A stretch of 64,000 nucleotides of DNA. Origin: Pirellula staleyi DSM 6068. Its GTDB lineage: Bacteria; Planctomycetota; Planctomycetia; Pirellulales; Pirellulaceae. The translations under genes and the position numbers were made by a program. Location: positions 1 to 64,000 of the forward strand of contig CAMCMB010000010.1 in assembly GCA_945875845.1 (NCBI GenBank). The letters are read 5' to 3'. The notes beneath the pieces were generated by a model that saw only the letters and a list, made by a program, of their open reading frames with translations, was not told the origin of the DNA and ran no database searches. Positions 3,784 through 28,435 of this stretch are shown here, piece by piece; the stretch's first letter is position 1, and the number at the start of each line of letters is the position of its first letter.

Positions 3784-4153
3784 ATACCCGTCCAAGCTTT
3801 TCGTTTCGTAGGTCAAGTGCTTCTTGATTATGCGACTATTCGAGTTGTCGACACGCAGTGCATGATCGCTCATGGACCATCAAGGATGGGTCGTGTCGTC
3901 TCATATATCCTTGCACAGTTCAAGGCACCTGTGGCGTCATAAGACGCCATGGGCCCATGGCTATTGCATGGTTGCATTGAGTAATCAGTGGCTCTTTGGC
4001 CGATCACTCAAAGCCGCTCGGGCTGGCCACAATCGGTAGGGCGACGTGTCTGGCGTTCATGTGCTTGCGTCTTGCTCGCTTGCTCATACGGTGAACTCCA
4101 GTGTCAGCTGGTCTGGGTGGCTTCAGCTCAAGGTTGGCTCATTGGCTACTTGC
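3784..4153. other. Intergenic stretch between two transposase relics
   Basis: No credible gene is seen. The short open frames here have no recognisable motifs. The minus strand may hold the eroded continuation of the IS110 relic, but it is broken by stops. Confidence 0.5.
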
Positions 4154-4441
4154 TCATATGTTGATTTGGTGGGCCGTTTTCCATTTGACGTTCGACCGTT
4201 TCCATGCATCCTCATTTGTCGAACAGACACTCGTCTTTCTTCCGAGTTCCGTTGCTGAATCGTGAATCCATGCGGATGGGACACATGCCTCCATGACAAC
4301 CAGATCGCTTGGGTGCTTTTTGAGTACGGTAGTCAGGTAGGTGCGTTCCGTAGTAGCGTTGATAAACTCATGCTTTCGGGTTTTTGTGTCGAAATAACAG
4401 CACATAGTGTTGAACTTACCGAGGTCGAGTGCGAGAATCTT
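4154..4441 (-). pseudogene. IS110-family transposase relic
   Basis: Read from about 4441 downwards, the frame gives KILALDLGKFNTMCCYFDTK, then HPSDLVVMEACVPSAWIHD and VCSTNEDAWK. This is the N-terminal DEDD (RuvC-like) region of IS110/IS1111 transposases, with the first catalytic Asp in ALDLGK and the Glu in VVMEAC. The usual TDRDDAL segment is replaced by TAHQINI and a stop. No start codon and no C-terminal transposase domain are present. It is a remnant of about 95 residues. IS110 elements have no inverted ends, so the original borders cannot be placed. Confidence 0.7.
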
Positions 4442-4664
4442 GATTGTCGTTTGTCCGTGGTTTTGGGGTTGGTCCGTGTGACACGATCGCTTTCGTGATC
4501 ACGGGTCAAAGTCGCCAGTTTTAGCAAAGACTCTCGCCCCAAACCTAGGACTTCCATGGATTCTGCAGACGGAAATCTGTTGCAATTCGTTCTGGATTGG
4601 GAGAGCGAGGCTCCTGCCGAGCTAGCGACGCCCTGGTTCGTTTGGAGCCTCACCTTCCCGAACA

Positions 4665-5117
4665 ATGACTATCCCCTTTTCAACGAATTCAATGAGTACT
4701 GTACCCCTTCCCGAACCGCTCGACCATGCTCGATTCAATGAATTGGTGCTCGCGGCTCAGAACGCGGCCAAGTCAGCCTACAACCCTTATAGTCGGTTTG
4801 CGGTCGGTTGCGCATTGCTTTCGAAGAGTGGCCAGGTGTATTGTGGGTGCAACATCGAAAATGCTTCCTATTCGGTTACGATTTGTGCAGAGCGGGTGGC
4901 TGCTTCCCAAGCGGTCTTACGGCGCGATCTCGATTGGGATACGATCGTCGTCGTTTCGCCACAACGGGTTACACCATGCGGTGTTTGCCGTCAGTTCCTA
5001 CATGAGTTCGCACCACAACTTCGTGTTTGGAACGGTTATTTGGACAATCTGGAACTTATCGGCCCGACTTTATTGCACGAACTCCTGCCTTCGGCCATGA
5101 CCCTTTCTCGCAGTTAA
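4665..5117 (+). CDS. cdd: Cytidine deaminase
   Basis: The product is 150 residues (ATG 4665; ATG 4692 is equally possible). It deaminates cytidine and deoxycytidine to uridine and deoxyuridine in pyrimidine salvage. The zinc site is clear: CNIENASYSVTICAERVA carries the catalytic Cys-Ala-Glu, and TPCGVCRQFL supplies the other two zinc cysteines. The N-terminal YNPYSRFAVGCAL matches the substrate-binding YSxFxVGAAL motif. Length is normal for the homotetrameric class. The last part (LRVWNGYLDNLEL..LLHELLPSAM) is the typical C-terminal tail. The next gene starts about 14 nt after the stop if its GTG start is correct, so the two may be co-transcribed. Confidence 0.92.
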   Translation: MTIPFSTNSMSTVPLPEPLDHARFNELVLAAQNAAKSAYNPYSRFAVGCALLSKSGQVYCGCNIENASYSVTICAERVAASQAVLRRDLDWDTIVVVSPQRVTPCGVCRQFLHEFAPQLRVWNGYLDNLELIGPTLLHELLPSAMTLSRS

Positions 5118-15234: not shown

Positions 15235-15619
15235 TCCGGTTCTTCTCTCGCATACAAAGGAACATTTCAATATATTTCGGTTTGCCTTCCCCGTATTACT
15301 ACGCAGGAATCGACGTACGCATTCACGCTTGCATGCCGTCTTCCAGTCAACATCCGTCAACTCAGTTGCATTTCGTCTACCCAAACAAAAGGAAACTAAG
15401 TTTACAAACCAAGTTTGATCTAACGACAATCGTCCTCGCTGGCCAAGCCAGACCGCCGATTCCTTCAGCCCAATTCAACTGCGCGAGCCCAAACAAAGGT
15501 CCATTGATGTTAAGCTGGTGTCGCTTAACCGAGACATACATTACCGTTCCGTATCCGCCTCAGCAAGCGTCCCGCAAAGTTTCTTTAATCCCATCCTCTC
15601 ACGATTACATCCGCTTATT
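15235..15619. other. Divergent promoter region glnII / cstA
   Basis: No gene is seen. The open frames on both strands here are extensions of the flanking genes without ribosome-binding sites. No clear sigma-54 or NtrC-type site was recognised. Confidence 0.4.
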
Positions 15620-17713
15620 ATGCATGCGATGCCCCTGCTTTTAGGTGTGTTGGCGATCTTGGCGATCGCCTACCGTTTTTACAGCGCATTTTTGGCAGCC
15701 AGCGTGGCATGCATTGATCCGAGTCGCGAGACGCCCGCCGAGCGACTCAATGATGGTCAAAATTACCATCCGACCAATCGATGGATTCTTTTTGGACATC
15801 ACTTTGCAGCGATCTCCGGTGCCGGCCCTTTGATTGGACCTGTGCTTGCCATTCAGTTTGGTTATATGCCGGGCCTTATTTGGTTGGTGGTTGGCGTGTG
15901 TTTGGCTGGGGCGGTGCAAGATTTTTTGGTTTTGAGTGCGAGTGTAAGGTATGACGGCAAATCGTTGGCCGAGATGGCAAAACATTTGTTGGGGCCACGA
16001 ACTGGGTTCATCGCTTCGATTGCCATTCTATTTATCGTGATTATTGCGTTGTCTGGACTGGGCGTGGTGGTGGTGAAGGCGTTAGGTGGTGAAACGGTTA
16101 AGTTGATAGCATCGTCCAAGATTTCCTACCAAGGTGAACTTCAAAAGACACGAACACCTGCGGGTACTGTGATTCGAGTACCGTCTGGATCGACCATTGA
16201 GTATCCCAATGGTTCTTATCAACGGAGCGAGTCGTATACCATCCAGGTGCCAACCGACTCGGATTGGGATTCGAGCGTGGGAACGATCGTGGTGCCGGAG
16301 AAGTCTTTGGAATTGATCCGGGGGAGCTCATGGGGAACGTTCACCATTTTTTGCACCATACCCATTGCGTTGTTGGTCGGGTGGTACATGTATCGATTCC
16401 GAAAGGGTCGGATTGGAGAAGCCTCGTTTCTTGGGGCGATTGGCGTGCTAGGTGCGACGTTCGCGGGCAACTGGATTCCCGGTTCGATCCTGGAGCCTTA
16501 TTTCCTACTTTCACGTCAAGGAATCATCATCGCTATTTGCGGGTATGGGTTCATTGCGTCCGTATTACCGGTTTGGCTCCTTTTGTGTCCGCGTGACTAC
16601 ATTTCGAGCTTTCTCAAGATCGGAACGATTTTGGTGTTGATGATTGGTGTCGTCGTCGCCAATCCGATGATGCAAGCCCCTCCTGTCAACGAGTATTTCG
16701 CGTCGAAAGGTGGCCCTTACTTCAATGGCGCGATCTTCCCTTTCGTCTTTATTTGCATCATGTGTGGTGCAATCTCGGGCTTTCATGCTTTGGTGTCTTC
16801 CGGAACAACTCCCAAAATGGTTTCGTCCGAAAAAGATTTGCGGATGATCGGGTATGGGGCGATGCTGATGGAGGGGATCGTTGCCATTTGTGCACTGATC
16901 GTGGCTGGAGCCATGCCGGAAGGAGACTATTGGGCAATCAATATCGACCTATCTCGAATGCATGAATACTCGGAAACGCTCACGAAAATGAATGCAAATG
17001 TGGATCACTTGGAAGAGTTGGAGCGACAGGTTGGCGGCGAATCGTTGCGTGGTCGAACGGGTGGAGCGGTGACGCTGGCCGTTGGGATGGCGACCATCAT
17101 GACCGATGCGATGAAAAAAATTTCCAGTACGATCGATATCGATAGCGTGATCAAGTATTGGTTTCATTTCGCTATCATGTTTGAAGCGTTGTTCATTCTG
17201 ACGACGATTGATACGGGGACTCGCATTGCGAGATTCCTGTTGCAAGAAGTACTCGGAAATGTGTTTCCCAAGTTCGCCAAAATGGATTGGTGGCCTGGTG
17301 TGATTCTCAGTACTGCCTTGGTAACACTCGGCTGGGGGTCTCTCATATGGAGCAGTTCGATCGACACGATCTGGCCCATGTTTGGAATCGCCAATCAATT
17401 ACTCGCCGGGATCGCGCTATGCGTTGTAACGACATGGATCTTTCAAAATGGTCGAGGTCGATACGCTTTTGTGACAATCATTCCGCTCGTTTTCATCGTG
17501 ACAACGACATTTACGGCCGCCGCCCAACTCGTATCGTATCGATTCTGGCCCTTGTTTTTACTCGGTCGAGAAAACAACGATAGTCAAAAGATGCTGCAAG
17601 GCGGATTGTGTTGCACTGCAATCGTTTTCTTGATTTTTTGTTTTGTATTCATCTTGGCAAGTTCGATTGCAAAGTCGGCCAGTTTCGCCAAGTTTCGAGT
17701 CCCCAAAACGTAG
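15620..17713 (+). CDS. cstA: CstA-family carbon-starvation / peptide-pyruvate transporter
   Basis: The product is 697 residues from ATG 15620 (MHAMPLLLGVLAILAIAYRF). The frame is open upstream to 15518, but the membrane span starts here. It is an integral membrane protein with many spans. The CstA signature is present: NDGQNYHPTNRWILFGHHFAAISGAGPLIGP (residues about 43-75), then GLIWLVVGVCLAGAVQDF. Family members import pyruvate or peptides under carbon limitation. An insertion of about 85 residues (residues about 165-250, rich in Ser/Thr) sits in an extramembrane loop and is unusual for E. coli-like CstA. A small downstream partner (YbdD) is absent. An ECF sigma factor gene follows after 45 nt. 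Confidence 0.92.
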   Translation: MHAMPLLLGVLAILAIAYRFYSAFLAASVACIDPSRETPAERLNDGQNYHPTNRWILFGHHFAAISGAGPLIGPVLAIQFGYMPGLIWLVVGVCLAGAVQDFLVLSASVRYDGKSLAEMAKHLLGPRTGFIASIAILFIVIIALSGLGVVVVKALGGETVKLIASSKISYQGELQKTRTPAGTVIRVPSGSTIEYPNGSYQRSESYTIQVPTDSDWDSSVGTIVVPEKSLELIRGSSWGTFTIFCTIPIALLVGWYMYRFRKGRIGEASFLGAIGVLGATFAGNWIPGSILEPYFLLSRQGIIIAICGYGFIASVLPVWLLLCPRDYISSFLKIGTILVLMIGVVVANPMMQAPPVNEYFASKGGPYFNGAIFPFVFICIMCGAISGFHALVSSGTTPKMVSSEKDLRMIGYGAMLMEGIVAICALIVAGAMPEGDYWAINIDLSRMHEYSETLTKMNANVDHLEELERQVGGESLRGRTGGAVTLAVGMATIMTDAMKKISSTIDIDSVIKYWFHFAIMFEALFILTTIDTGTRIARFLLQEVLGNVFPKFAKMDWWPGVILSTALVTLGWGSLIWSSSIDTIWPMFGIANQLLAGIALCVVTTWIFQNGRGRYAFVTIIPLVFIVTTTFTAAAQLVSYRFWPLFLLGRENNDSQKMLQGGLCCTAIVFLIFCFVFILASSIAKSASFAKFRVPKT

Positions 17714-17758
17714 AATCCGTGGCGTCGATGGTTAACGGGCATTAAAATAATCTGCTGG

Positions 17759-18520
17759 GTGACCCGACACTGCTTAGAAATTCCTCTTCATGGACTTAAT
17801 GCTCAAGTGACTCTTCGCGAGAAATCGGACCCTGAGTCGAGTCTGGATAAGATTGCGACCCGCTGGTCGTCCGTTGGCGATCCGAGAAAATTCTTAAGTC
17901 GCTACGAGCGAGCGATTCGCAACTATTTGCGAGCGATCCTCAAGGAGGTCGATGCTGTCGACGAGGTTTTCCAGGATTGCGTCGTGAAGTTACTCAATCG
18001 CCATTTTGTTAAAGCGAAGTGCGACCAAGGCCGATTCCGTTTCTATCTGAAGCGATCCGTTCGAAACACCGCCATCAATTATCTCCGGGAGCAACGCAGA
18101 CAAAAACATGTTGACTACGACATCCGTCAACTTTTGGCAACGCCCAAGGATGAATCGCCCGAAGACGTGCTGTTCTTGAGCGACTGGCGAGATACCTTGC
18201 TGCAGCGATCCTGGAAAGGCTTGGCAGAGCATGAACGATCGTCTCCTGAGAGTCTATGCTACACCGTACTGCGACTCGCTGCAGATTGGCCATTGGAAAG
18301 CTCCGCTCAATTGACGGAGCGGGCGATGAAAATGACAGGCACGTCGATTTCGGTCGAATCCTTTCGAAAAAAGCTAAGTCGAGCCCGTCATCGATTCGCG
18401 GAAAAACTTGTCTTAGAAGTGGGCCAGACGTTGGAAAACCCTAGTCTCGCCAGCGTTGAGTTGGAGTTGATCGATCTCGATCTCATCGTCTATGTGCGGC
18501 ATATTCTGCCTGGCAACTAA
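17759..18520 (+). CDS. ECF-type RNA polymerase sigma factor
   Basis: The product is 253 residues, starting at GTG 17759. Region 2 reads FLSRYERAIRNYLRAILK..DAVDEVFQDCVVKLL, and FRFYLKRSVRNTAINYLREQRRQ is the region 2.4-like helix. The usual spacing to region 4 is occupied by an acidic linker (ATPKDESPEDVLFL). Region 4 resembles VESFRKKLSRARHRFAEKL. This is the pattern of the large planctomycete ECF groups. The C-terminal tail (about 30 acidic and hydrophobic residues) is longer than usual. No anti-sigma factor or kinase gene is adjacent. It ends convergent with moeA, the two stop codons overlapping. Confidence 0.8.
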   Translation: MTRHCLEIPLHGLNAQVTLREKSDPESSLDKIATRWSSVGDPRKFLSRYERAIRNYLRAILKEVDAVDEVFQDCVVKLLNRHFVKAKCDQGRFRFYLKRSVRNTAINYLREQRRQKHVDYDIRQLLATPKDESPEDVLFLSDWRDTLLQRSWKGLAEHERSSPESLCYTVLRLAADWPLESSAQLTERAMKMTGTSISVESFRKKLSRARHRFAEKLVLEVGQTLENPSLASVELELIDLDLIVYVRHILPGN

Positions 18521-19779
18521 TACAAAAAGACCTCGATGATGGTCTCGGATGCATAGCCTTCGCTATTGGCCGGGACAATGACGAAACCATCGGCTGACGT
18601 GGTGGACGTCAAGATCGAAGCGCCGCTGATGGAAATCGGCTCGGCGTTGTTTCCGATCAGCTTGACTCGGGCATAATCGACGCGTCCGACGGTGGATACG
18701 AGCTTGCGAGTGAGCTTGGCCTGCACCCGTAGATAAGGCCAGTCCACACTTCGTCCACTTAACGCACGAATGGCTCGTCCTGCAAAGAAATCATAAGCGC
18801 AGAGGCAAGAGACGGGGTTTCCTGGCAGCAAGAAGACGAGCCGGTTATTGAATAGTCCCATACCGGCCGGACTGCTTGGACGCATCGCGATGCCGTGAAT
18901 CGCAAGCAGGCCATGTGTGGCCACGAGCTGGGGTGCGTGGTCGTCTTGTCCAACGCTCGAACCACCCGACACGAGTAGGATATCTGCCGATTCGGACATC
19001 GAGGCCATGGCGGCCAGCAACGACTCGCGATCATCAGGTACAAGGCCCGGCATCACGGGCTGACCACCATCCCGCTTCACCAACGCATGCAGCATGGGTC
19101 CGTTGGCATCGGTGATCTGGTATCCCTTCGGAGCGGTTCCGCAGGGGAGCAGTTCATTGCCCGTGATCAAGATACCGACTCTTGGCTTGCGTACGACGAC
19201 GGCATTGTTGCAACCGATGGACGAAAGGACTCCGATGTCTTGAGGCCTAAGTACCCTCCTTGCGCTCAGCAACGTTGAGCCACGATGCACATCTTCACCG
19301 ACAGCGCCCACGTGTTTGCCAGCCGACACCTCGGCCATCGCCAACAACGAATCCCCCTGTCTCTCGGTTTTCTCCACGGGTAGGACAGCGTTCGCTCCGT
19401 TCGGCATGGGCGCACCCGTCATGATGCAGACGGTTTGTCCCGGAAATAAGGTTCCGGAAAAAGGAGCGCCCGGAAAAGAAGTCCCCACAATCTTGAACGG
19501 GAGTGGATTGTACGGAGTCGCGCCGTATGTTTCTGTGGCGCTAAGCGCAAAGCCATCCATCATCGAGCGATCAAACCCAGGCACGTTGACACGGCTAACC
19601 ACGTCGGCGGCAAGTATTAGACCGCGAGACTCAAGCAAGGAAACTTCTTCGGTGGGTAGCTTGCTGAAGTTCGGCAGTTGGGCGTCTATCCACGCAACGG
19701 CTTCGTCGACTGTCGTGCGACTCGCAAATCCCTTCATCCGGACATCGGAAGTCACGTTACTCGGTGGCATAGGATTCAT
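18517..19779 (-). CDS. moeA: Molybdopterin molybdenumtransferase MoeA
   Basis: The product is 420 residues from ATG 19779 (an upstream ATG at 19821 also keeps the frame). MoeA inserts Mo or W into adenylylated molybdopterin. NVPGFDRSMMDGFAL, TGAPMPNGANAVLPVE, GILITGNELLP and LLVSGGSSVGQDDH carry the MoeA/gephyrin-E signature, and MRPSSPAG with FLLPGNPVSCLCAY closes the active site. The more usual MKPGKP is MRPSSPA here. It is divergent from moaD (137-nt gap) and clusters with AOR and formylmethanofuran dehydrogenase genes. A second MoeA-type gene lies at the far end of the cluster, so one may favour tungsten, which is inference. Confidence 0.93.
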   Translation of the reverse strand: MNPMPPSNVTSDVRMKGFASRTTVDEAVAWIDAQLPNFSKLPTEEVSLLESRGLILAADVVSRVNVPGFDRSMMDGFALSATETYGATPYNPLPFKIVGTSFPGAPFSGTLFPGQTVCIMTGAPMPNGANAVLPVEKTERQGDSLLAMAEVSAGKHVGAVGEDVHRGSTLLSARRVLRPQDIGVLSSIGCNNAVVVRKPRVGILITGNELLPCGTAPKGYQITDANGPMLHALVKRDGGQPVMPGLVPDDRESLLAAMASMSESADILLVSGGSSVGQDDHAPQLVATHGLLAIHGIAMRPSSPAGMGLFNNRLVFLLPGNPVSCLCAYDFFAGRAIRALSGRSVDWPYLRVQAKLTRKLVSTVGRVDYARVKLIGNNAEPISISGASILTSTTSADGFVIVPANSEGYASETIIEVFLY

Positions 19780-19916
19780 CGTGTGGTTCCATTGGGTCAA
19801 CGCGGTTTTTGAAAGTCCCACAGGAATCGTGGTTGTATTGCCCGATCGGACTTGTAGGACTACGATGTTCTACATCAACTCCACTTCTCGTAGAAGACAA
19901 ACAAACTCCCTTGAAC

Positions 19917-20228
19917 ATGCTTGACCGCCCGATTTCATCGCCGATCCACCTAGTCTTGAGACCGTTGCAGGTGACCGTCGAGCTCTTTGGAATTCCGCGA
20001 TTGCGGGCGGGAGTGTCCCAGTCTGTTGCGGATGGTTCGACTCTCGGTGAAATCCTGCTGGACTTGTCTCGGCGTTTTCCGTCGCTGGGGAAATCCTGCA
20101 TCGAAGGTTGCAATCTGAAAGCGGGCTATATTGCGAACTTGCGTGGTGAGCGATTTGTAACGGATCCCGAGACCGAATTGAACGAGGGAGACATCGTTCT
20201 GCTGATGTCCTTGGATGCCGGTGGGTAA
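19917..20228 (+). CDS. moaD: MoaD/ThiS-type sulfur-carrier protein
   Basis: The product is 103 residues from ATG 19917 (the frame is open to 19809). It has a beta-grasp fold: LQVTVELFGIPRLRAG at the start, TLGEILLDLSRRFPSL helix, LNEGDIVLLMSLDAGG at the end. The C-terminal Gly-Gly is the thiocarboxylation site. As the small subunit of molybdopterin synthase it would donate sulfur to the pterin; AOR-linked MoaD copies may serve a tungsten-pterin enzyme. It ends 13 nt before the AOR start and is surely co-transcribed with it. MoaE is not in the window. Confidence 0.85.
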   Translation: MLDRPISSPIHLVLRPLQVTVELFGIPRLRAGVSQSVADGSTLGEILLDLSRRFPSLGKSCIEGCNLKAGYIANLRGERFVTDPETELNEGDIVLLMSLDAGG

Positions 20229-20241
20229 AGTGGAACATTCA

Positions 20242-22020
20242 ATGGATCAAACCCCTGGGTATCACGGGCGGTATCTACGTATCGATTTGTCGTCGGGGAT
20301 CTCGAAATCAGTGTCACTGGAAGCATCGTTTTTAAGAAAGTATCTCGGCGGTAGTGGTTTGGGTGTGGCGCTGTTGATGAAGGAAGGCACAGCCACGGTT
20401 GAACCGCTTTCTCCAGAAGCGGCGATAGCATTTGTATTTAGTCCCCTTGTTGGCAGTCCCTTAACCACATCCGCCAAGTTTGCAGTGGTCAGTAAGAGCC
20501 CCTTAACTCAACGCATCAACGACTCACTCGCAAGCAGTGGTTTTGCGTTAACCGGAAAGAAAACGGGCCATGATGCGATCGTTCTGGTTGGACGCGCTTC
20601 GCGCCCCTCAGTTCTGGTGATCGATAACGATCAGGTGCGACTGGAGCCGACCGAAGACCTCAGGGGTTGCTCCAATCCAGAAACCCAGAAAAAACTTCGA
20701 AGCCGTTTCGGAGCCGACTTTCAAATCGCAACGATTGGTCCTGCAGGAGAGAGGCTCGTTCGATTTTCAACGATTTCGCATGATGGACGACACGCAGGTC
20801 GAGGCGGCAGCGGTGCAGTCCTTGGTTCGAAAAATATCAAGGCGATTGCCGTGCGAGGCACGCAGCGAGTTCAATGGTCGGACCAGTTGGCTCTCGTACG
20901 TTTGGCAAAAGAGCTATCCGAAAAATCCTTTGGACCGGCGACCGCCAAGTACCGGGAGTTGGGGACCGCCTCCAATCTATTGACGTTCAATCGACTAAAT
21001 GTCTTGCCGACTCGGAATTTCCAACAAGGGAGTTTTCAGGGCGCATCGGCAATCTCATCAGAAGAACTCGGCGCCGTCCGCAATCGGACACGCGCCTCAT
21101 GTGCGGCATGTACAATCGGGTGCGAACATCTTTACAGTCTCAAGAGCGGCGTACCCGTAAGATTGGAATACGAGAGCCTGTTCGCCCTTGGACCCTTATG
21201 CGGTATCGATGATTCTGAAATAGTGCTGATTGCATCTCAGCGTTGTGACGCCGCAGGGCTCGATACGATCAGCTCAGGCGGAACCATTGGTTTTGCCATG
21301 GAGTGTGCCGAGCGTGGCCTGATCGATGCCCCTTGGCTCCGCTTTGGGGATGGCAACGCATTGTTGCGTGCCCTGGATTTAATGGTTAGCGGTGAAGGGC
21401 TCGGGCAACTGCTAGCAATGGGAAGCCGCGCCATGGCCATGGAAATAGGGCATGACTCAATCGAATTCGCCCCGCAGGTCAAGGGATTGGAACTGCCGGG
21501 CTATGATCCTCGCGGTTTGCAAATGATGGCACTCGGGTTTGCGGTTGGCGCGCGAGGTGCAGATCACAACCGTTCCGGAGCCTATGAGGTAGATTTTTCG
21601 GAGGCGGTCGATCGGCGAAATGTCGGCCCCGAGTCGGCGCATTTGGCCGTCGAAACCGAAGACCGAGCAGCTCTGATGGACTCGCTGATCCTATGCAAGT
21701 TCCTGCGCGGCGTTTTTGTTGACTTCTTTCACGAGTCCGCTGACATTCTTCGATTGGTCACAGGTTGGGACGTAACGGCCGCAGAGCTTCGCGAGACCGC
21801 TCAGCGGATTGTCACGGAAAAGAAACGTTTCAATATCCTTGCGGGATGGACCCCATCCGAAGACACTTTGCCCACGCGAATGCTTCAGACCGCCATCCCC
21901 GAAGATGCCCGTTCAAGTTTATCAACGGATCGACTTGCATCGCTCATAAAAGCTTACAATCTAGCTCGAGGCTGGAGCGAAGAAGGTTGGCTACCCGAAG
22001 CGGAGCAGTGTACGCTGTGA
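20242..22020 (+). CDS. Aldehyde:ferredoxin oxidoreductase family (tungsten) enzyme
   Basis: The product is 592 residues from ATG 20242. AOR enzymes oxidise aldehydes to acids (or do the reverse) with a tungsto-bispterin and one [4Fe-4S] cluster, using ferredoxin. AGRGGSGAVLGSKNIKAIA (residues 185-203) is the family signature. The cluster ligands are Cys287, Cys290, Cys294 (CAACTIGC) and Cys485 (LILCKF). The pterin-binding segments CDAAGLD (335-341) and KGLELPGYDPRG (414-425) are kept. Length is normal (about 600). It follows moaD directly and precedes fwdD-fhcB-fhcA-fhcD on the same strand. The substrate is unknown; the context suggests a C1 or formaldehyde-linked compound, which is inference. 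Confidence 0.9.
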   Translation: MDQTPGYHGRYLRIDLSSGISKSVSLEASFLRKYLGGSGLGVALLMKEGTATVEPLSPEAAIAFVFSPLVGSPLTTSAKFAVVSKSPLTQRINDSLASSGFALTGKKTGHDAIVLVGRASRPSVLVIDNDQVRLEPTEDLRGCSNPETQKKLRSRFGADFQIATIGPAGERLVRFSTISHDGRHAGRGGSGAVLGSKNIKAIAVRGTQRVQWSDQLALVRLAKELSEKSFGPATAKYRELGTASNLLTFNRLNVLPTRNFQQGSFQGASAISSEELGAVRNRTRASCAACTIGCEHLYSLKSGVPVRLEYESLFALGPLCGIDDSEIVLIASQRCDAAGLDTISSGGTIGFAMECAERGLIDAPWLRFGDGNALLRALDLMVSGEGLGQLLAMGSRAMAMEIGHDSIEFAPQVKGLELPGYDPRGLQMMALGFAVGARGADHNRSGAYEVDFSEAVDRRNVGPESAHLAVETEDRAALMDSLILCKFLRGVFVDFFHESADILRLVTGWDVTAAELRETAQRIVTEKKRFNILAGWTPSEDTLPTRMLQTAIPEDARSSLSTDRLASLIKAYNLARGWSEEGWLPEAEQCTL

Positions 22021-22038
22021 ATAAATGCTTAGGTCATC

Positions 22039-22098
22039 ACCGGAGGGCTCGCGCCCTGCCGCTAGCATTTGGTAGCGGAACGGCGTGAGCCGTCCGGT
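22039..22098 (+). repeat. 60-nt imperfect hairpin between AOR gene and fwdD
   Basis: ACCGGAGGGCTCGCGCCCTG-CCGCTA and TAGCGGAACGGCGTGAGCC-GTCCGGT form 26-nt arms around an 8-nt loop (GCATTTGG). Four or five mismatches are spread through the stem. It lies 18 nt after the AOR stop. This shape matches a common planctomycete intergenic repeat. It could act as an RNA-stability or attenuation element inside the operon. Confidence 0.7.
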
Positions 22099-22191
22099 AA
22101 GTCCAACAGACTAAATCCGCAGCCGATCCGCGATAGTGCGCCTCATGAACGATCCTCAACCCCATACCACTATTTCCTCGCGATACTATTC

Positions 22192-22551
22192 ATGCTTGAA
22201 ACATTTATTCTTATTCCAGGTCGAACAACAGACCAAGGCTGCGGGGTTAGCGAAGGGAAGTTCAAGGACAGGTACCAAAACGCGATCCGGGCACTGCAAG
22301 TCGCTCCGGGCGACATGACTCGGCTTGGGCTAGCCGAGGGCGATCGAGTTCGCTTGACGGGTGAAGAGGGACAGACCGTTGAAGTTTGTATTACGGCTGC
22401 GAAAAAAGAGGAGTTGCCGGAAGGACTACTGTTCATTGCTTACGGTGACATCTCCAGTCGGATGATGACGGGAGATACGCATGGTTCCGGGATGCCGACC
22501 AGCAAGGGAATGGAAGTGACGATGGAGTTGGTTCAAAAGGCAGTCGCATAG
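22192..22551 (+). CDS. fwdD: Formylmethanofuran dehydrogenase subunit D-like (pterin-dinucleotide binding)
   Basis: The product is 119 residues from ATG 22192. It is a small beta-barrel of the molybdopterin-dinucleotide-binding type: MTRLGLAEGDRVRLTGEEG, then ELPEGLLFIAYGD. SGMPTSKGMEVTMEL near the end matches the GMPxxKG region of FwdD/FmdD. In methanogens this subunit completes the metal-pterin site together with FwdB. Fhc complexes of methylotrophic proteobacteria, which do no redox chemistry, lack it. It lies 42 nt upstream of fhcB on the same strand. Its presence supports a redox-competent complex here. Confidence 0.8.
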   Translation: MLETFILIPGRTTDQGCGVSEGKFKDRYQNAIRALQVAPGDMTRLGLAEGDRVRLTGEEGQTVEVCITAAKKEELPEGLLFIAYGDISSRMMTGDTHGSGMPTSKGMEVTMELVQKAVA

Positions 22552-22593
22552 AGTGGTCCGGTTCAACATCGCTAACTTCGAAAGTATTTTTTT

Positions 22594-23943
22594 ATGACCA
22601 GCGGATCCACTCAAGCTCACGCACCCACTCCGAGCATCCCGGGCGAACTCAAGATCATTCAGGATGCCACATGCACGTTTTGTGGCTGCGTCTGCGACGA
22701 TATCGAGTTGACGGTCAAGGACGACCACATCATCGAGGCCAAACGCGCCTGTATATTGGGCAAATCTTGGTTTCTCAATCACAGTGTGGAAGACAGACCG
22801 AGTTGCACGATCGACGGCAATCCTGCCAGCTTGGAGCAAGGATACGATCGAGCGGCGCAGATTTTGACGCATGGGAAATACCCGATCGTCTATGGTTTGA
22901 GCGACTCTCCGTGTGAAGCACAGCGAGTTGCCGTCAGCATCGTCGATTGGATCAGCGGCACGATCGACACGACCACCAGCGTTTGTCACGGACCATCCGG
23001 GATGGCCTTTCAAGGGGTTGGCGAAGTGACCTGTTCGCTTGGCGAAGTGGCGAATCGCGGTGATATGATTATGTTTTGGGGCTCGAACCCTGCCGAAAGC
23101 CATCCACGTCATTTTACCAAATACAGCCTTATGCCCAAGGGAATGTTCCTTCCCAACGGACGCAAGGATCGAACTTGTGTCATTGTCGACGTCCGCAGGA
23201 CCAAGAGCGCCAAGGCAGCGGACATCTTCATTCAGATTAAACCCAAGAAAGACTTCGAAGCGCTTTGGACTCTAAGAGCACTTGCGAAGGGGATTGAGTT
23301 GGATCCAGAGCTTGTGCTTCGCGAAACCGGAGTTGAGTTCTCCGTTTGGAGCGATCTGATGGACCGGATGAAGGCTTGCAAGTTCGGTGTCATCTTCTTT
23401 GGAATGGGGTTAACCATGACTCGGGGCAAGCACGTCAATAGCGAAGCCCTACTAGCATTGACGCGGGACATGAACGCTCACACGCGATTTGTCGCCAAGC
23501 CGAATCGGGGTCATGGAAATGTGACGGGGGCCGACAATGTTGTTTCATGGCGAACGGGCTATCCTTTCGGAGTCAATCACGCGCGAGGGTATCCTCGGTT
23601 CAACCCGGGCGAGTATACCACCTCGGATACTCTGGCCAATCGAGAAGCCGATTGTGCCATGATGATCGCTTGTGATCCGATGGCCAATTTCTCGCAACCT
23701 GCGCGCGAACATTTGGCGACGATTCCTTATATTGCACTTGATACCAAAGAAACGCCTACGACTCGGTCGGCCGCCGTGGCCTTCGCTGTAGCGACCTATG
23801 GCATCAACACGGGTGGAACCGTCTATCGAATGGACGATGTTCCCATTCCGCTTCGCCCGGCGTTTGCATCTCCTCACCCCAGCGACTATGACGTGCTGAC
23901 CGCCATCGAAGTACGCGTGAAAAAGATCCTAGGCATCACATGA
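22594..23943 (+). CDS. fhcB: Formylmethanofuran dehydrogenase subunit B (FwdB/FhcB)
   Basis: The product is 449 residues, the length of methanogen FwdB and longer than the roughly 350 of Methylobacterium FhcB. The [4Fe-4S] ligands CTFCGCVCDD (Cys27, Cys30, Cys34) are followed by Cys53. SVCHGPSGMAFQGVGE puts a Cys131-His132 pair where FwdB binds Mo/W. FWGSNPAESHPRH and NREADCAMMIACDPMAN are pterin-binding motifs. In methanogens FwdB oxidises or reduces the formate/CO2 unit. The retained ligands argue for an active metal site, unlike the inactive methylotroph FhcB. It overlaps fhcA by 4 nt (ATGA). Confidence 0.9.
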   Translation: MTSGSTQAHAPTPSIPGELKIIQDATCTFCGCVCDDIELTVKDDHIIEAKRACILGKSWFLNHSVEDRPSCTIDGNPASLEQGYDRAAQILTHGKYPIVYGLSDSPCEAQRVAVSIVDWISGTIDTTTSVCHGPSGMAFQGVGEVTCSLGEVANRGDMIMFWGSNPAESHPRHFTKYSLMPKGMFLPNGRKDRTCVIVDVRRTKSAKAADIFIQIKPKKDFEALWTLRALAKGIELDPELVLRETGVEFSVWSDLMDRMKACKFGVIFFGMGLTMTRGKHVNSEALLALTRDMNAHTRFVAKPNRGHGNVTGADNVVSWRTGYPFGVNHARGYPRFNPGEYTTSDTLANREADCAMMIACDPMANFSQPAREHLATIPYIALDTKETPTTRSAAVAFAVATYGINTGGTVYRMDDVPIPLRPAFASPHPSDYDVLTAIEVRVKKILGIT

Positions 23944-25613
23944 CGTCACCTGACTACACAAAAATCTCCCAAGGAATCGTCTACGATCCTCGAAATGGCG
24001 TCGATGGTGAAGTCCGCGACCTATGGATTTTGGATGGTCGAATCGTCGATTCGCCAGCGGACTCTTCCGTTCGTGCGTCAAGAACGATCGACGCGACCGG
24101 ATTGGTGGTTATGCCGGGTGGGATCGATATGCATTGCCACATCGCGGGCCCGAAAGTCAACGTCGCTCGCAAAATGCGGCCGGAAGAAAAACGCCGGGGC
24201 GAACAAATGCCTCGAACCAGTATCACCCACAGTGGCTCGATGGGCAGCGTACCCAGCACGTTTGCAACGGGCTACAAATACGCCGCGCTCGGTTACACCA
24301 CCGCATTCGATGCGGCTATTCCGCCGATTGCAGCTCGACATGCGCACGAAGAGTTTGAAGATACGCCCTGTATCGACAAAGGTTTTTACGTGCTGATGGG
24401 GAACAATCACTATGTGATGCAGTCCCTGATGAAAAATGAGCCACACAAATTGAAGGCGTTCATTGCATGGTTGCTTACCTCCACGAAAGGTTTTGCGCCC
24501 AAACTGGTGAATCCCGGTGGCGTTGAGGTTTGGAAATCAAAGCAGGCGGGCAACGTGAGCGGATTGGATACGAAGGTCGATCACTTTGGAGTGACTCCTC
24601 GGCAGATCATTTGCGGTGTCGCACAGGCTGCAGCAGAACTCGCATTGCCCCATCCCGTCCACATTCATTGCAACAACCTCGGTATGCCAGGCAACTGGGA
24701 GACAACGCTCGAGACGATGCGAGCATTGAACGGATATCGAGGGCACATCACTCACATTCAGTTCCATAGTTATGGCGGTGGGAATGGAGATGAAAACACA
24801 TTCAACAGCAAAGTGATTCCGTTGGTAGAGTATGTCAATTCGCATCCCAACATTACCGTCGATGTTGGCCAAGTGCTGTTTGGGGAAACGACCAGCATGA
24901 CGGGAGATGGACCGCTTGGTTATTTTTTATCCAAAGTCTACGGTGGAAAATGGTTCAGCAGCGATACCGAGATGGAGTCCGGTTGTGGAATCACTCCGAT
25001 CAAATACCGCAATAAATCGCTTGTGCATGCGCTCCAATGGGCGATTGGGCTTGAGTGGTACCTGCTGGTCAAAGATCCTTGGCAGGTCGTCATGAGTACG
25101 GACCATCCCAACGGAGGCTCGTTCCTTGCTTATCCGCAAATCATTCGGTTTCTAATGGACAAAACCTATCGAAGGGATGTTCTTAAAACATGTCCGCCTG
25201 CCATTTTAGAACGCTCGTCGCTCTGGGAAATCGACCGTGAATACACGCTCAATGAAATTGCCATCATCACACGAGCCGGTCCGGCGAAAATCCTGGGCCT
25301 GAACGACAAGGGGCACCTAGGAGCTGGTGCAGATGCAGATATCACCATTTACACTCCACATGAAAACAAGGAAGTGATGTTCGAGATGCCGCGTGTTGTC
25401 ATCAAGTCCGGTCGAGTCCTTGTCGAACAGGGGGAGATCCGCGAAACACTCATCGGCAAGACGCTGCATGTTCAACCAAACTACGACCTCGAAGTCGAGA
25501 CGGATATTCAGGAATGGTTTGAAAAATACTATTCGATCCAATGGCGAAATTATCCTGTCGATTTGAGCTACTTGTACGAATCCTGCGTCATTCCGACCCG
25601 GCGAGGATCCTAA
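23940..25613 (+). CDS. fhcA: Formylmethanofuran dehydrogenase subunit A (amidohydrolase FwdA/FhcA)
   Basis: The product is 557 residues. It is an amidohydrolase that forms or splits the formyl-methanofuran amide. MPGGIDMHCHIAGPKVN holds the metal His65 and His67. VHIHCNNLGMPGNWETTLETM, THIQFHSYGG and STDHPNGGSF carry the other metal and substrate residues. The whole length matches FwdA (about 560-570). In methanogens this subunit uses formate made by FwdB; in methylotrophs it hydrolyses formyl-MFR. It overlaps fhcB by 4 nt and fhcD by 1 nt (TAATG), so translation is probably coupled. Confidence 0.93.
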   Translation: MTSPDYTKISQGIVYDPRNGVDGEVRDLWILDGRIVDSPADSSVRASRTIDATGLVVMPGGIDMHCHIAGPKVNVARKMRPEEKRRGEQMPRTSITHSGSMGSVPSTFATGYKYAALGYTTAFDAAIPPIAARHAHEEFEDTPCIDKGFYVLMGNNHYVMQSLMKNEPHKLKAFIAWLLTSTKGFAPKLVNPGGVEVWKSKQAGNVSGLDTKVDHFGVTPRQIICGVAQAAAELALPHPVHIHCNNLGMPGNWETTLETMRALNGYRGHITHIQFHSYGGGNGDENTFNSKVIPLVEYVNSHPNITVDVGQVLFGETTSMTGDGPLGYFLSKVYGGKWFSSDTEMESGCGITPIKYRNKSLVHALQWAIGLEWYLLVKDPWQVVMSTDHPNGGSFLAYPQIIRFLMDKTYRRDVLKTCPPAILERSSLWEIDREYTLNEIAIITRAGPAKILGLNDKGHLGAGADADITIYTPHENKEVMFEMPRVVIKSGRVLVEQGEIRETLIGKTLHVQPNYDLEVETDIQEWFEKYYSIQWRNYPVDLSYLYESCVIPTRRGS

Positions 25614-26530
25614 TGACGGAATCTCAAACCAATCCCATGCACCTTCACGGCGTCGAAATCATCGACACGTTTGCCGAAGCGTTTCCGATCAAAGCCACGC
25701 GACTGATTATCACAGCCGACCAGCTTCGTTGGGCAACGATGGCAGCAACGGTCATGTGTGGCAATGCAACAAGTGTCATAGCCTGCGATGTCGAAGCCGC
25801 TATTGAACAATTGGTTGCACCGGAGGAATCGCCGGATGGCCGACCCGGCGTATCGGTGCTCGTTTTTGGGTTTAAGATAGAAGCCTTGGCAAAGGCGTTG
25901 CAGGCGCGCGTCGGTCAGTGTGTCCTCACGTGCCCTACCACCGCTTGTTACAACGGAATTCGCGATTGTCCTAAGGAAAAACAGATCCGAATCGGAGGCG
26001 GCATTCGCTACTTTGGCGATGGCTTTCAAGTCGCCAAAAAGTTCGAAGACCGGCGATTTTGGCGAATTCCTACGATGGATGGTGAGTTTGTCTGCGAGGA
26101 TTACTTTGGCACGCTTACCGGAGTCGCCGGTGGAAATCTCCTGATCTGCGGAACCAACTCTTCAGCCGCATTGATCGCGGCCGAAGCGGCTGTCGCTGCG
26201 ATCAGTACGGGTACGGATGTTGCCTTGCCATTCCCAGGTGGAATTGTGCGATCTGGGAGCAAGGTGGGTTCAAGATATCCGGCACTCAAAGCGAGCACGA
26301 ATGATGCGTATTGTCCGTCCCTGCGAGGGGTGACAAAATCGGAGCTACCACCGAATTGCCATGCGGTCTACGAGATCGTTATCGACGGACTTTCGTTCGA
26401 GGCAGTTCAGTCGGCAATGAAGCGAGGTCTTCATGCCGCCTCCGCTTCACCGAACATTCTCCGTATTACGGCTGGCAACTATGGTGGCAAGCTCGGTAAG
26501 CACCATTTCTATTTGCGCGAGCTGATCTAG
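25613..26530 (+). CDS. fhcD: Formylmethanofuran:tetrahydromethanopterin formyltransferase
   Basis: The product is 305 residues, close to the usual 297 of Ftr. It moves the formyl group between methanofuran and tetrahydromethanopterin. HGVEIIDTFAEAFPIKATRL at the start, VLTCPTTACYNGI and RIGGGIRYFGDGFQ are Ftr motifs. YPALKASTNDAYCPSLRG is the conserved central part and ITAGNYGGKLGKHHFYLREL is the C-terminal end. The start overlaps the fhcA stop. The stop (TAG) abuts the ATG of the next gene. FhcC/FwdC, which completes the complex, is not found in the window. Confidence 0.93.
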   Translation: MTESQTNPMHLHGVEIIDTFAEAFPIKATRLIITADQLRWATMAATVMCGNATSVIACDVEAAIEQLVAPEESPDGRPGVSVLVFGFKIEALAKALQARVGQCVLTCPTTACYNGIRDCPKEKQIRIGGGIRYFGDGFQVAKKFEDRRFWRIPTMDGEFVCEDYFGTLTGVAGGNLLICGTNSSAALIAAEAAVAAISTGTDVALPFPGGIVRSGSKVGSRYPALKASTNDAYCPSLRGVTKSELPPNCHAVYEIVIDGLSFEAVQSAMKRGLHAASASPNILRITAGNYGGKLGKHHFYLRELI

Positions 26531-28435
26531 ATGTCCGATCAGGAACAATTCCTCGATGTTATCGACCGCGATGAAGCCGAAAGACGATTTCGATCCGCAC
26601 TGAATCTGCAACCGCTCGGCATCGAACGCTTGGCGGTTCGCGACTCTTTAGGCCGAGTTCTTGCGGCCAACGTGCTTGCACAAGTAGACGTGCCGTCCTT
26701 TGATCGGTCCAATTTCGATGGCTATGCGGTCCAAGCCGCAGACACTTTTGGCGCGAGCGAAGTGTATCCGAAAATTATCCAACTCTCGCATCAATCGATC
26801 GAGGCAAGCGTCGAGCCAACGGGTGTGCTACAATCTGGGCAAGCGATCACGATCGCAACCGGAGGTATGTTGCCGCGCGGCGCCGATGCAGTCCTCATGG
26901 TGGAACATGCGGAGGAACGCAGTGGAGTGGTGCAAGTGCGCCGAGCCGTTACACCAGGATTTGGAATCTCGTTTGCTGGAACAGACATCGCGATCGGTGA
27001 AACCGTGCTGCTCGCGGGAACTTTGTTGACCAGCCGGGAAACGGGAGTGCTTGCAGCGATCGGTATCGAGTTTGTCGACGTCTGGCGCCAACCTCGGGTA
27101 ACGATCCTTTCTACCGGCAATGAGATCATCTCTCCGGGTACACCCATGCGACCAGCCGCCGTCTACGACTCGAACTCGCAAGTGCTCGCAGATGCAGTGC
27201 GGGAACAGGGTGGAATTCCCATCTTGGGCGGGATTATTCGCGATAACACCGACGAGTTGCGATCCGCACTGCACAAGGCGATTGAGGATTCCGATGTCGT
27301 ACTGCTATCGGGCGGAACGAGCAAAGGCAAGGGGGATCTGTGTTATCGAGTCGTCGCAGAATGGAAGGATCCAGGTATCGTTGTTCACGGCGTGGCTCTG
27401 AAGCCGGGCAAGCCCATCTGTATGGCGGTCATCGCCTCCAAACCAGTCGTGATACTTCCTGGCTTTCCAACGTCTGCCATCTTTACATTTCACGAGTTTA
27501 TAGCCCCGATCCTGCGATTGTTGGGAGGGCGACAACGGGAGTCCCATGAGACTCTGACCGCATCGATGGCAATCAAGACCAATTCCGAAGTTGGACGGAC
27601 GGAATACTTACTGGTGGGACTGATCAAAACGGACAAAGGGCTATCTGCGTTCCCGATGGGCAAAGGCTCAGGCTCAGTGACTGCGTTCAGTCGAGCAGAC
27701 GGCTTTGTGACCATTCCCCGCCATACGGAAATTGTGGCGGCAGGCGAGCAAGTTCAAGTGCGGCTGATCGGTCGTGGTTTGGAGCTTGCAGATCTGGTTG
27801 TTATCGGGAGTCATTGCGTTCAACTGGATCTTTTGTTGACTCAGCTTCAACAACGTTCCGTTCGTTCGAAATTTCTAGCGGTTGGGAGCACGGCTGGACT
27901 GATGGCTGCCAAGCGGGGTGAATGTGATGTTGCAGGAATTCATTTGCTCGATCCTCTGACGGGTACTTACAATTCACCGTTTCTCAACGATTCCGTTACC
28001 CTAGTTGAGGGCTACGTCCGATCGCAAGGAATTGTTTTTCGTAGAGGTGATGAGCGATTCGAAGGGCGAACGGCTGCTGAGATCGTCGCTGAGGCCAACC
28101 GTGATTCGTCGATCGTAATGGTCAATCGCAATCAAGGAAGTGGAACGAGAATTCTGATCGATCGAGTACTGGCTGGGACGAAACCGTCTGGTTACGCAGT
28201 GCAACCCAACAACCACAGTGCGGTCTCGGCCGCCATTGTTCAGCACCGTGCCGATTGGGGCATCGCGATTGAAGCGATTGCCCGATGGAATAATCTCGCG
28301 TTTCTCCCGATCCAAGAGGAACATTACGATTTCGCGATACCAAACGATCGTTTGGATCGGCCGGCGGTTCAGGAGTTTATTGCTCTGCTGTCGGCGATGC
28401 AAAAAACATCGAATAGGAAGACCGAACCGCTTTGA
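26531..28435 (+). CDS. MoeA fused to a periplasmic-binding-protein-like domain
   Basis: The product is 634 residues. Residues 1 to about 405 are MoeA: VPSFDRSNFDGYAVQA, TGGMLPRGADAVLMVEH, ILSTGNEII, VVLLSGGTSKGKGDL and VALKPGKPICMAV, closing with VILPGFPTSAIFTF. From about 415 on is a PBP-like domain with FLAVGSTAGLMAAKRGECD, AGIHLLDP, and NQGSGTRILIDRVL; it resembles the domain in archaeal MoeA fusions thought to sense or deliver an oxyanion. It starts directly after the fhcD stop and is part of the operon. It may load tungstate or molybdate into the two metal-pterin enzymes encoded upstream, which is inference. Its last 59 nt overlap the converging aldolase gene. Confidence 0.9.
   Translation: MSDQEQFLDVIDRDEAERRFRSALNLQPLGIERLAVRDSLGRVLAANVLAQVDVPSFDRSNFDGYAVQAADTFGASEVYPKIIQLSHQSIEASVEPTGVLQSGQAITIATGGMLPRGADAVLMVEHAEERSGVVQVRRAVTPGFGISFAGTDIAIGETVLLAGTLLTSRETGVLAAIGIEFVDVWRQPRVTILSTGNEIISPGTPMRPAAVYDSNSQVLADAVREQGGIPILGGIIRDNTDELRSALHKAIEDSDVVLLSGGTSKGKGDLCYRVVAEWKDPGIVVHGVALKPGKPICMAVIASKPVVILPGFPTSAIFTFHEFIAPILRLLGGRQRESHETLTASMAIKTNSEVGRTEYLLVGLIKTDKGLSAFPMGKGSGSVTAFSRADGFVTIPRHTEIVAAGEQVQVRLIGRGLELADLVVIGSHCVQLDLLLTQLQQRSVRSKFLAVGSTAGLMAAKRGECDVAGIHLLDPLTGTYNSPFLNDSVTLVEGYVRSQGIVFRRGDERFEGRTAAEIVAEANRDSSIVMVNRNQGSGTRILIDRVLAGTKPSGYAVQPNNHSAVSAAIVQHRADWGIAIEAIARWNNLAFLPIQEEHYDFAIPNDRLDRPAVQEFIALLSAMQKTSNRKTEPL

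Follow-up and report, generated by a model that had tools for sequence, protein, structure and literature searches.

The 64,000-nucleotide stretch analysed here (the window) represents the first 64 kb of contig CAMCMB010000010.1 (C10) of the Pirellula staleyi DSM 6068 assembly GCA_945875845.1 (Planctomycetota; source genome G000, 7.0 Mb, 99.95% complete). Between positions 18,517 and 28,435 it encodes subunits of a formylmethanofuran dehydrogenase (Fwd), an aldehyde oxidoreductase (AOR) and proteins for a metal-pterin cofactor. A second, archaeal-type formylmethanofuran dehydrogenase apparently works in this bacterium beside its ordinary C1 set, and comparison with related genomes links it to the AOR. 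The block comprises the following features:

18517..19821, minus strand: MoeA (MoeA1), divergent from the block (PF03453 8e-41, PF00994, PF03454)
start about 19965, stop 20228, plus strand: MoaD-like sulphur carrier with a GG end (TIGR01687 2e-4, below cut-off)
20215..22020, plus strand: aldehyde oxidoreductase of the AOR/WOR family (PF02730 1e-62, PF01314 4e-96; 1aor 2e-101)
22039-22055 (minus) and 22082-22098 (plus): inverted pair resembling repetitive extragenic palindromes (REP), between AOR and FwdD
22192..22551, plus strand: FwdD-like pterin-dinucleotide-binding subunit (NF042908 4e-18; FwdD structure PDB 2ki8 2e-16)
22594..23943, plus strand: FwdB catalytic subunit (TIGR03129 470 bits, cut-off 328)
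23940..25613, plus strand: FwdA amidohydrolase subunit (TIGR03121 752 bits, cut-off 393)
25613..26530, plus strand: Ftr/FhcD formyltransferase (NF002554 433 bits, cut-off 297; TIGR03119 430 bits, cut-off 293)
26531..28435, plus strand: MoeA2, a MoeA fused to a PBP-like domain (NF011068 (PRK14498) 727 bits, cut-off 534; PF12727 7e-47)

Profile searches recovered every gene that a first-pass annotation, made from the letters alone, had named here, and the coupled starts it had described are all visible: FwdB and FwdA share an ATGA, FwdA and Ftr a TAATG, and the TAG of Ftr abuts the ATG of MoeA2; MoaD and AOR overlap as well. That annotation had placed the genes in one block. Their order is as claimed—MoeA on the minus strand, followed by MoaD-AOR-FwdD-FwdB-FwdA-Ftr-MoeA::PBP—but AOR and FwdD are separated by 171 bases (22021-22191) containing the REP-like pair (two matches in the gap versus none in 100 shuffles). 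The profile match of FwdD begins at residue 46 of a TTG-initiated open reading frame (ORF) at 22069, making the ATG at 22192 the better start.

FwdC is absent from the window, as had been remarked. A loss of this subunit is rejected, however, since its gene was located on contig C3 (G000:C3:129196-129993; 266 bits, cut-off 131), divergent from mobA and adjoined by a REP-associated transposase gene (61 bits, cut-off 80). A genome of the same genus, G021, carries MobA/FwdC beside MoeA2-Ftr-FwdA-FwdB, and MobA and FwdC occur together in 15 of 27 stretches compared, several of which run into contig ends or were chosen for other FwdB kinds. Judged by gene order, MobA and FwdC also belong to the module.

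Catalytic residues and the resident Fhc set

The closest solved relatives of both FwdB (PDB 9sfi 2e-108, 8rja 9e-105, 5t5i 8e-103) and FwdA (PDB 8rja 4e-153, 5t5i 3e-146) are formylmethanofuran dehydrogenase complexes. The Fe-S cysteines C27, C30, C34 and C53 of FwdB and its metal ligand C131 (motif SVCHGPS) are present in all 33 members read of the FwdB clade defined below, that is, in 31 of the 35 clade genomes of the order plus G014 and G016 (G051, G065, G084 and G184 were unread). The FwdD-like subunit scores 66 bits against NF042908, whose cut-off is 175, and matches PF01568 (3e-7) above its cut-off.

The AOR is the sole PF02730 match in its genome. Residues C296, C299, C303, C494, E320 and H451 are invariant in 30 of 30 sequences and, in a second comparison, in 25 of 25; as in Pyrococcus AOR, these would be the four Fe-S cysteines and the catalytic glutamate and histidine. 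Among solved relatives, its sequence is closer to AOR than to formaldehyde oxidoreductase (FOR), a subfamily with specificity for small aldehydes, whereas the fold comparison between the two was tied. The predicted model (predicted local distance difference test score, pLDDT, 76.8) drops below 50 at residues 248-278, 280-310, 427-432 and 438-452, including active-site stretches, and did not narrow the substrate. AorA and AorC are not among the block genes, every called gene there having another identity.

For the MoaD-like protein, fold and GG end uphold the first-pass assignment, but the sequence match is weak, with scores below cut-off for PF02597 (21.5 versus 22.5 bits) and TIGR01687 (21.6 versus 49.5 bits). 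Its model (pLDDT 95.8) has a beta-grasp fold, the nearest solved folds being the MoaD-related 1v8c, SAMP1, CysO and MoaD; CysO and SAMP1 score equally, leaving the carrier type unseparated. A GG end is found in 63 of 64 MoaD homologues of the named AOR loci (the best 80 of 284 AOR relatives), the remaining one having unknown residues at this position.

Is the block merely the resident planctomycete Fhc? This candidate is rejected, as the resident set is a separate locus, with FhcA2 and FhcB2 on contig C7 and FhcC2 on C50. FhcB2 shares 25% identity with FwdB, and a histidine takes the place of the ligand cysteine; a B subunit without metal ligand is a hallmark of Fhc from which the window's FwdB, with C131 in place, departs. 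FhcA2 was found in 25 of 25 genus genomes searched (62-100% identity) and the module FwdA in four of the 25 (G000, G014, G016 and G021, with the FwdB search giving the same four), from which we conclude that the module is an addition to the genome. Mch and two Fae are encoded in the window's genome as well. A 225-amino-acid ORF next to the resident FhcC2 (L006 8995-9669, G000:C50) matched nothing in Pfam or NCBIfam.

The ligand position varies among the other kinds of FwdB found in the order, where it is an in-frame TGA, Cys, Ala, Gly, His, Ser or Lys. In L025, L026, L027 and L033 the in-frame TGA occupies the metal-ligand codon (TSL*HGP), and these are likely selenocysteine FwdBs, spread over several families of the order; further FwdB rows of the order were flagged with one TGA. 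A second Cys-type FwdB (about 45% identity, Cys in STCHAPS) sits beside MoeA1 at the locus end in L116 (18477-19484), L117 (16665-17960) and L118 (18234-19499). The nearest FwdB outside the clade (G033:C156:62125-63408, L021; 67%) has an alanine at the metal-ligand position, and G033 has no AOR match in its genome, though TupA is present.

Co-inheritance of AOR and FwdB across the order

The first-pass annotation had regarded the union of Fwd with an AOR as unusual. To judge whether it is a real association, we scored 296 genomes of the order for an AOR clade (at least 54% identity, a cut set post hoc at the gap from 54 to 36%) and a FwdB clade (at least 74%, likewise set post hoc at the gap from 74 to 67%), both searches being restricted to E<=1e-60. 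The AOR clade is present in 34 genomes and the FwdB clade in 35, with 33 genomes having both, one the AOR only, two FwdB only and 260 neither (Fisher test, p = 3e-40, not corrected for phylogeny). By genus the counts are 24, 0, 1 and 96 (p = 2e-24), and shared ancestry inflates both p-values. The reading of AOR and Fwd as chance neighbours is rejected by this co-occurrence: as far as these clades go, the two are nearly always inherited together. G034, whose FwdB is split across two contigs, was scored as present. The AOR-only exception, G260, is 91% complete, and in the same genus G254 and G306 carry the pair; the FwdB-only exceptions are G084 and G184. None of the 82 other genomes with a FwdB match, which hold only other FwdB kinds, carries the AOR clade. 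Mch was counted by hand in 32 of the 33 module genomes.

Both genes lie on one contig in 13 of the 33 genomes and on different contigs in 20, which draft contig breaks explain in part; in G283 they are 277 kb apart on a single contig. Conserved gene order, whose lack in related genomes would have refuted the module idea of the first-pass annotation, was found in part of the relatives, and its interpretation is supported. The comparison drew on the 67 of the 80 named AOR loci that fall outside an acidobacterial group (65 with planctomycete titles, plus L181 and L198, titled just 'bacterium'), counting a Fwd gene in the flank at 50% identity or more. AOR-FwdD-FwdB-FwdA occur on one strand and in this order at 15 of the 67 loci, five of which (L148, L149, L154, L163 and L166) also have the window's divergent MoeA and MoaD upstream, with L149, L154 and L163 extending further to Ftr; at 11 other loci, FwdB and FwdD are in the flank on the opposite strand. 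Altogether a Fwd gene flanks 31 of the 67 loci, but none was found at 36, several of them with full 10-kb flanks. The loci are not independent samples, since some are near-copies and several occur in both the named and the unnamed set (L167 = G016, L173 = G035, L157 = G192, L162 = G200, L191 = G220).

In G016 (L039 2-1642, G016:C251; the contig also listed as L167), no stop codon separates the AOR frame from FwdD, and no REP-like stretch lies between the two. The joint may stem from a recent deletion or be a natural fusion, and the latter would fit direct contact of both proteins. One could go further and place the AOR within the Fwd complex, or next to it as a redox partner, in the role of FwdF/FwdG, the ferredoxin subunits of archaea, its Fe-S cluster and tungstopterin exchanging electrons with FwdB. 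The fused frame, the near-obligate co-inheritance with a single FwdB clade and the lack of a ferredoxin subunit in the block (neither FwdF nor FwdG is there, although no genome-wide search for them was made) would all suit such an arrangement. We nevertheless deem it improbable: the fusion is unique among 29 same-strand AOR-FwdD rows (24 different contigs), the AOR elsewhere having its own stop; G016 offers one draft contig in which FwdD retains an internal ATG as a possible start of its own; and the AOR also occurs with a formate dehydrogenase (FDH) that has its own NuoEF unit.

Partner exchange and cofactor supply

Where does the AOR occur without Fwd? The remaining 13 of the 80 named loci constitute the acidobacterial group (12 with titles of Acidobacteria groups, plus L193, whose title reads Acidimicrobiia). 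In a tree of 79 of the 80 loci, built by a quick method with Shimodaira-Hasegawa-like approximate likelihood ratio (SH-aLRT) supports and no bootstrap, and excluding the fragment L167 (<450 residues, the sole row of the window's genus), these 13 AORs group together as a single clade (SH-aLRT 98) within those of planctomycetes. The window's AOR falls into an 11-row set (SH-aLRT 96) whose titles name Planctomicrobium, Schlesneria and other Planctomycetaceae, a placement consistent with transfer inside the phylum.

Upstream of moaD-AOR, 10 of the 13 acidobacterial-group loci encode an FDH alpha subunit (TIGR01591 762 and 748 bits in two tested, cut-off 666) and a fused NuoE-NuoF subunit in place of Fwd, a two-subunit plan that presumably resembles that of MeFDH1 from M. 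extorquens. At the three others, only 3, 6 or 1,592 bases of contig precede AOR, and the longest of these stretches (L177) still contains part of the NuoEF gene. MoaD is present at 11 of the 13 loci, MobA at 12, MoeA2 at eight and MoeA1 at five; no MoeA was found in L184, L193 and L194, though 8 to 10 kb follow the AOR. On this evidence of gene neighbourhood, MoaD, AOR and MobA make up the constant core, which MoeA often joins, and the variable partner is a formate/CO2-handling enzyme. Because the swapped partners, Fwd and FDH, both act on formate/CO2, we propose that the AOR makes formate, and the earlier suggestion that it could supply this compound gains support from the exchange. As an aside, L175 encodes, near the acidobacterial FDH and adjoining a TauE-like gene, a LysR-type helix-turn-helix fused to a PBP-like domain (4037-5104), a candidate metal-sensing regulator.

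The same neighbourhoods could reflect a shared-cofactor regulon only, in which AOR, Fwd and FDH cluster via scarce tungstopterin factors while the substrate of the AOR is some unrelated aldehyde, for example one to be detoxified. MoaD, MobA and, in some loci, MoeA2 and MoeA1 do persist when the partner changes, and one bacterial AOR that has been characterised accepts a broad range of substrates (PMC6365974). Yet the partner is not just any molybdoenzyme but Fwd in planctomycetes and FDH in the acidobacterial loci, both of them formate/CO2 enzymes, and the Sec-type and second Cys-type FwdBs, which are expected to need a similar cofactor, occur in genomes that lack this AOR. A regulon of this kind is therefore unlikely in our view, albeit deserving of consideration.

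At least two MoeA copies are encoded in 30 of the 33 module genomes versus 26 of the 263 others; the window's genome has three, two of them in the block, and five module-free genus-mates searched have one each. The order also holds other AORs (30-36% identity; L228-L235), and all eight genomes fetched for these carry at least two MoeA, four of them (G065, G167, G190 and G283) also carrying the module.

Which metal does the cofactor hold? The first-pass annotation had opted for tungsten in the AOR, for which the enzyme family and a Tup-like transporter in relatives speak, but no TupA match was found in the window's genome at the search threshold, and a search for ModA gave only matches below cut-off. 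TupA is present in 17 of the 33 module genomes versus 13 of the 263 others, and by coordinates it adjoins the AOR in G115, G127, G169, G192, G200 and G212, all of family f7. TupA or TupB is in the flank of four of the 80 named loci; in L118, TupA (3e-65) and TupB (4e-49), both below their equivalog cut-offs, lie with an ABC ATPase divergent from moaD-AOR. From these features we infer tungsten as the probable metal of the module. The AOR link is also an indication that Planctomycetota and Acidobacteriota use tungsten.

A proposed C1 route and its relation to known systems

What might the module do? The genome encodes a complete FwdABCD, with FwdC on another contig, together with Ftr, an intact AOR, a local MoaD, two MoeA and MobA. 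With the scales about level, we read the block as a laterally mobile tungstopterin C1-oxidation module whose AOR would make formate and whose Fwd would handle formate, formyl-methanofuran and CO2. In archaeal Fwd, FwdB interconverts CO2 and formate, and FwdA formate and formyl-methanofuran, via an internal cavity (PMC7331816, PMC11656701). By analogy, formaldehyde bound to tetrahydromethanopterin, after Fae and Mch, would be passed through Ftr to formyl-methanofuran, from which FwdA would release formate within the complex for oxidation to CO2 by FwdB. Such an oxidation would save low-potential electrons, which hydrolysis by the resident Fhc would let go in the form of formate. In a parallel route, the AOR would turn a small aldehyde, free formaldehyde being the likeliest, directly into formate, which Fwd—or, in Acidobacteria, FDH—would use, and its electrons may be handed to the same low-potential carrier as those of Fwd. 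MoaD, MoeA1, MoeA2 and MobA would make the bis-pterin cofactor for AOR and bis-molybdopterin guanine dinucleotide for FwdB. A more specific version, which we put forward tentatively and with the balance of likelihood tilting against it, is a tungsten route of two enzymes that has not been described before: an AOR dedicated to oxidising formaldehyde would exchange formate, and perhaps electrons by direct contact, with a bacterial Fwd, the AOR being an exchangeable C1 unit with Fwd as partner in Planctomycetes and FDH in Acidobacteria.

The AOR might instead run in reverse, with reduced ferredoxin from the oxidation of formyl-methanofuran or formate driving acid-to-aldehyde reduction. AORs are indeed able to reduce acids using low-potential donors (PMC6365974, PMC9295118), but the neighbours that could be identified, many being unannotated, included no recognisable gene for an alcohol dehydrogenase or for acid activation, and we rate this direction as very improbable.

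How does the formate-making module compare with known systems? The archaeal tungsten or molybdenum Fwd/Fmd (PDB 5t5i, 8rja) shares homologues of FwdA, B, C and D and the Fe-S and ligand cysteines of FwdB with the window, whose set is bacterial, has no FwdF/FwdG in the block and is joined to AOR, MoaD, MobA and MoeA. The methylotroph Fhc complex consists of the same subunit families, with Ftr in the cluster, but its B subunit has no metal cofactor (PMC10100899), whereas the window's FwdB keeps the ligands. Bacterial Fwd of the catalytic type is already in print: Rhodopirellula P2 has an fmdDBAC operon with a selenocysteine FmdB, as opposed to the cysteine in the window (PMC4807772), and Hakuba actinobacteria have fwdDBA-ftr-fwdC with the ligand cysteine, in nearly identical order (PMC7325909). 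Neither account, in the parts drawn on, ties an AOR, MoaD or MoeA to Fwd, and the Hakuba paper there mentions aor solely for acetate conversion in other clades. The fwdD of the window contradicts the statement of an opinion paper that this gene is absent from Planctomycetes (PMC5020050).

On the side of the AOR, Pyrococcus AOR and FOR and the Aromatoleum AorABC have the fold and active-site residues in common with the window's enzyme. Unlike AorABC, however, the block lacks partners of the AorA/AorC type, and its AOR is co-inherited with Fwd or lies beside FDH. A dedicated tungsten MoeA and a Tup transporter for a C1 enzyme are known from the M. extorquens tungsten-formate dehydrogenase MeFDH1, encoded with moeA1-mobB-tupBCA, though that locus has MobB instead of MoaD and MoeA::PBP, and no AOR or Fwd is described for it in the parts drawn on (PMC13197769).

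We found no report of an AOR-Fwd link or of a Fwd/FDH exchange in those parts of the open-licence literature that were consulted, subscription papers lying outside the search, and the main text of a 2026 WOR classification gave no match for planctomycet-, acidobacter-, Fwd or formylmethanofuran. Just four of 92 WOR clades had a member of known function in 2022 (PMC9424855), and five clades according to a 2026 abstract (PMC13328260); the AOR-Fwd link gives a hypothesis of function for a group of these enzymes. The methylotroph relatives of the CO2-capturing enzyme of methanogens are hydrolases without metal cofactor, and here one bacterium holds a ligand-less and an apparently metal-loaded set, so that the contribution of the metal version becomes testable.

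Finally, just before MoeA1 in the coordinates of the window there are genes for a CstA carbon-starvation protein and then a sigma factor of the extracytoplasmic function (ECF) type (15518-18520), and an ECF-type sigma gene occupies the same position in G014 (L038).

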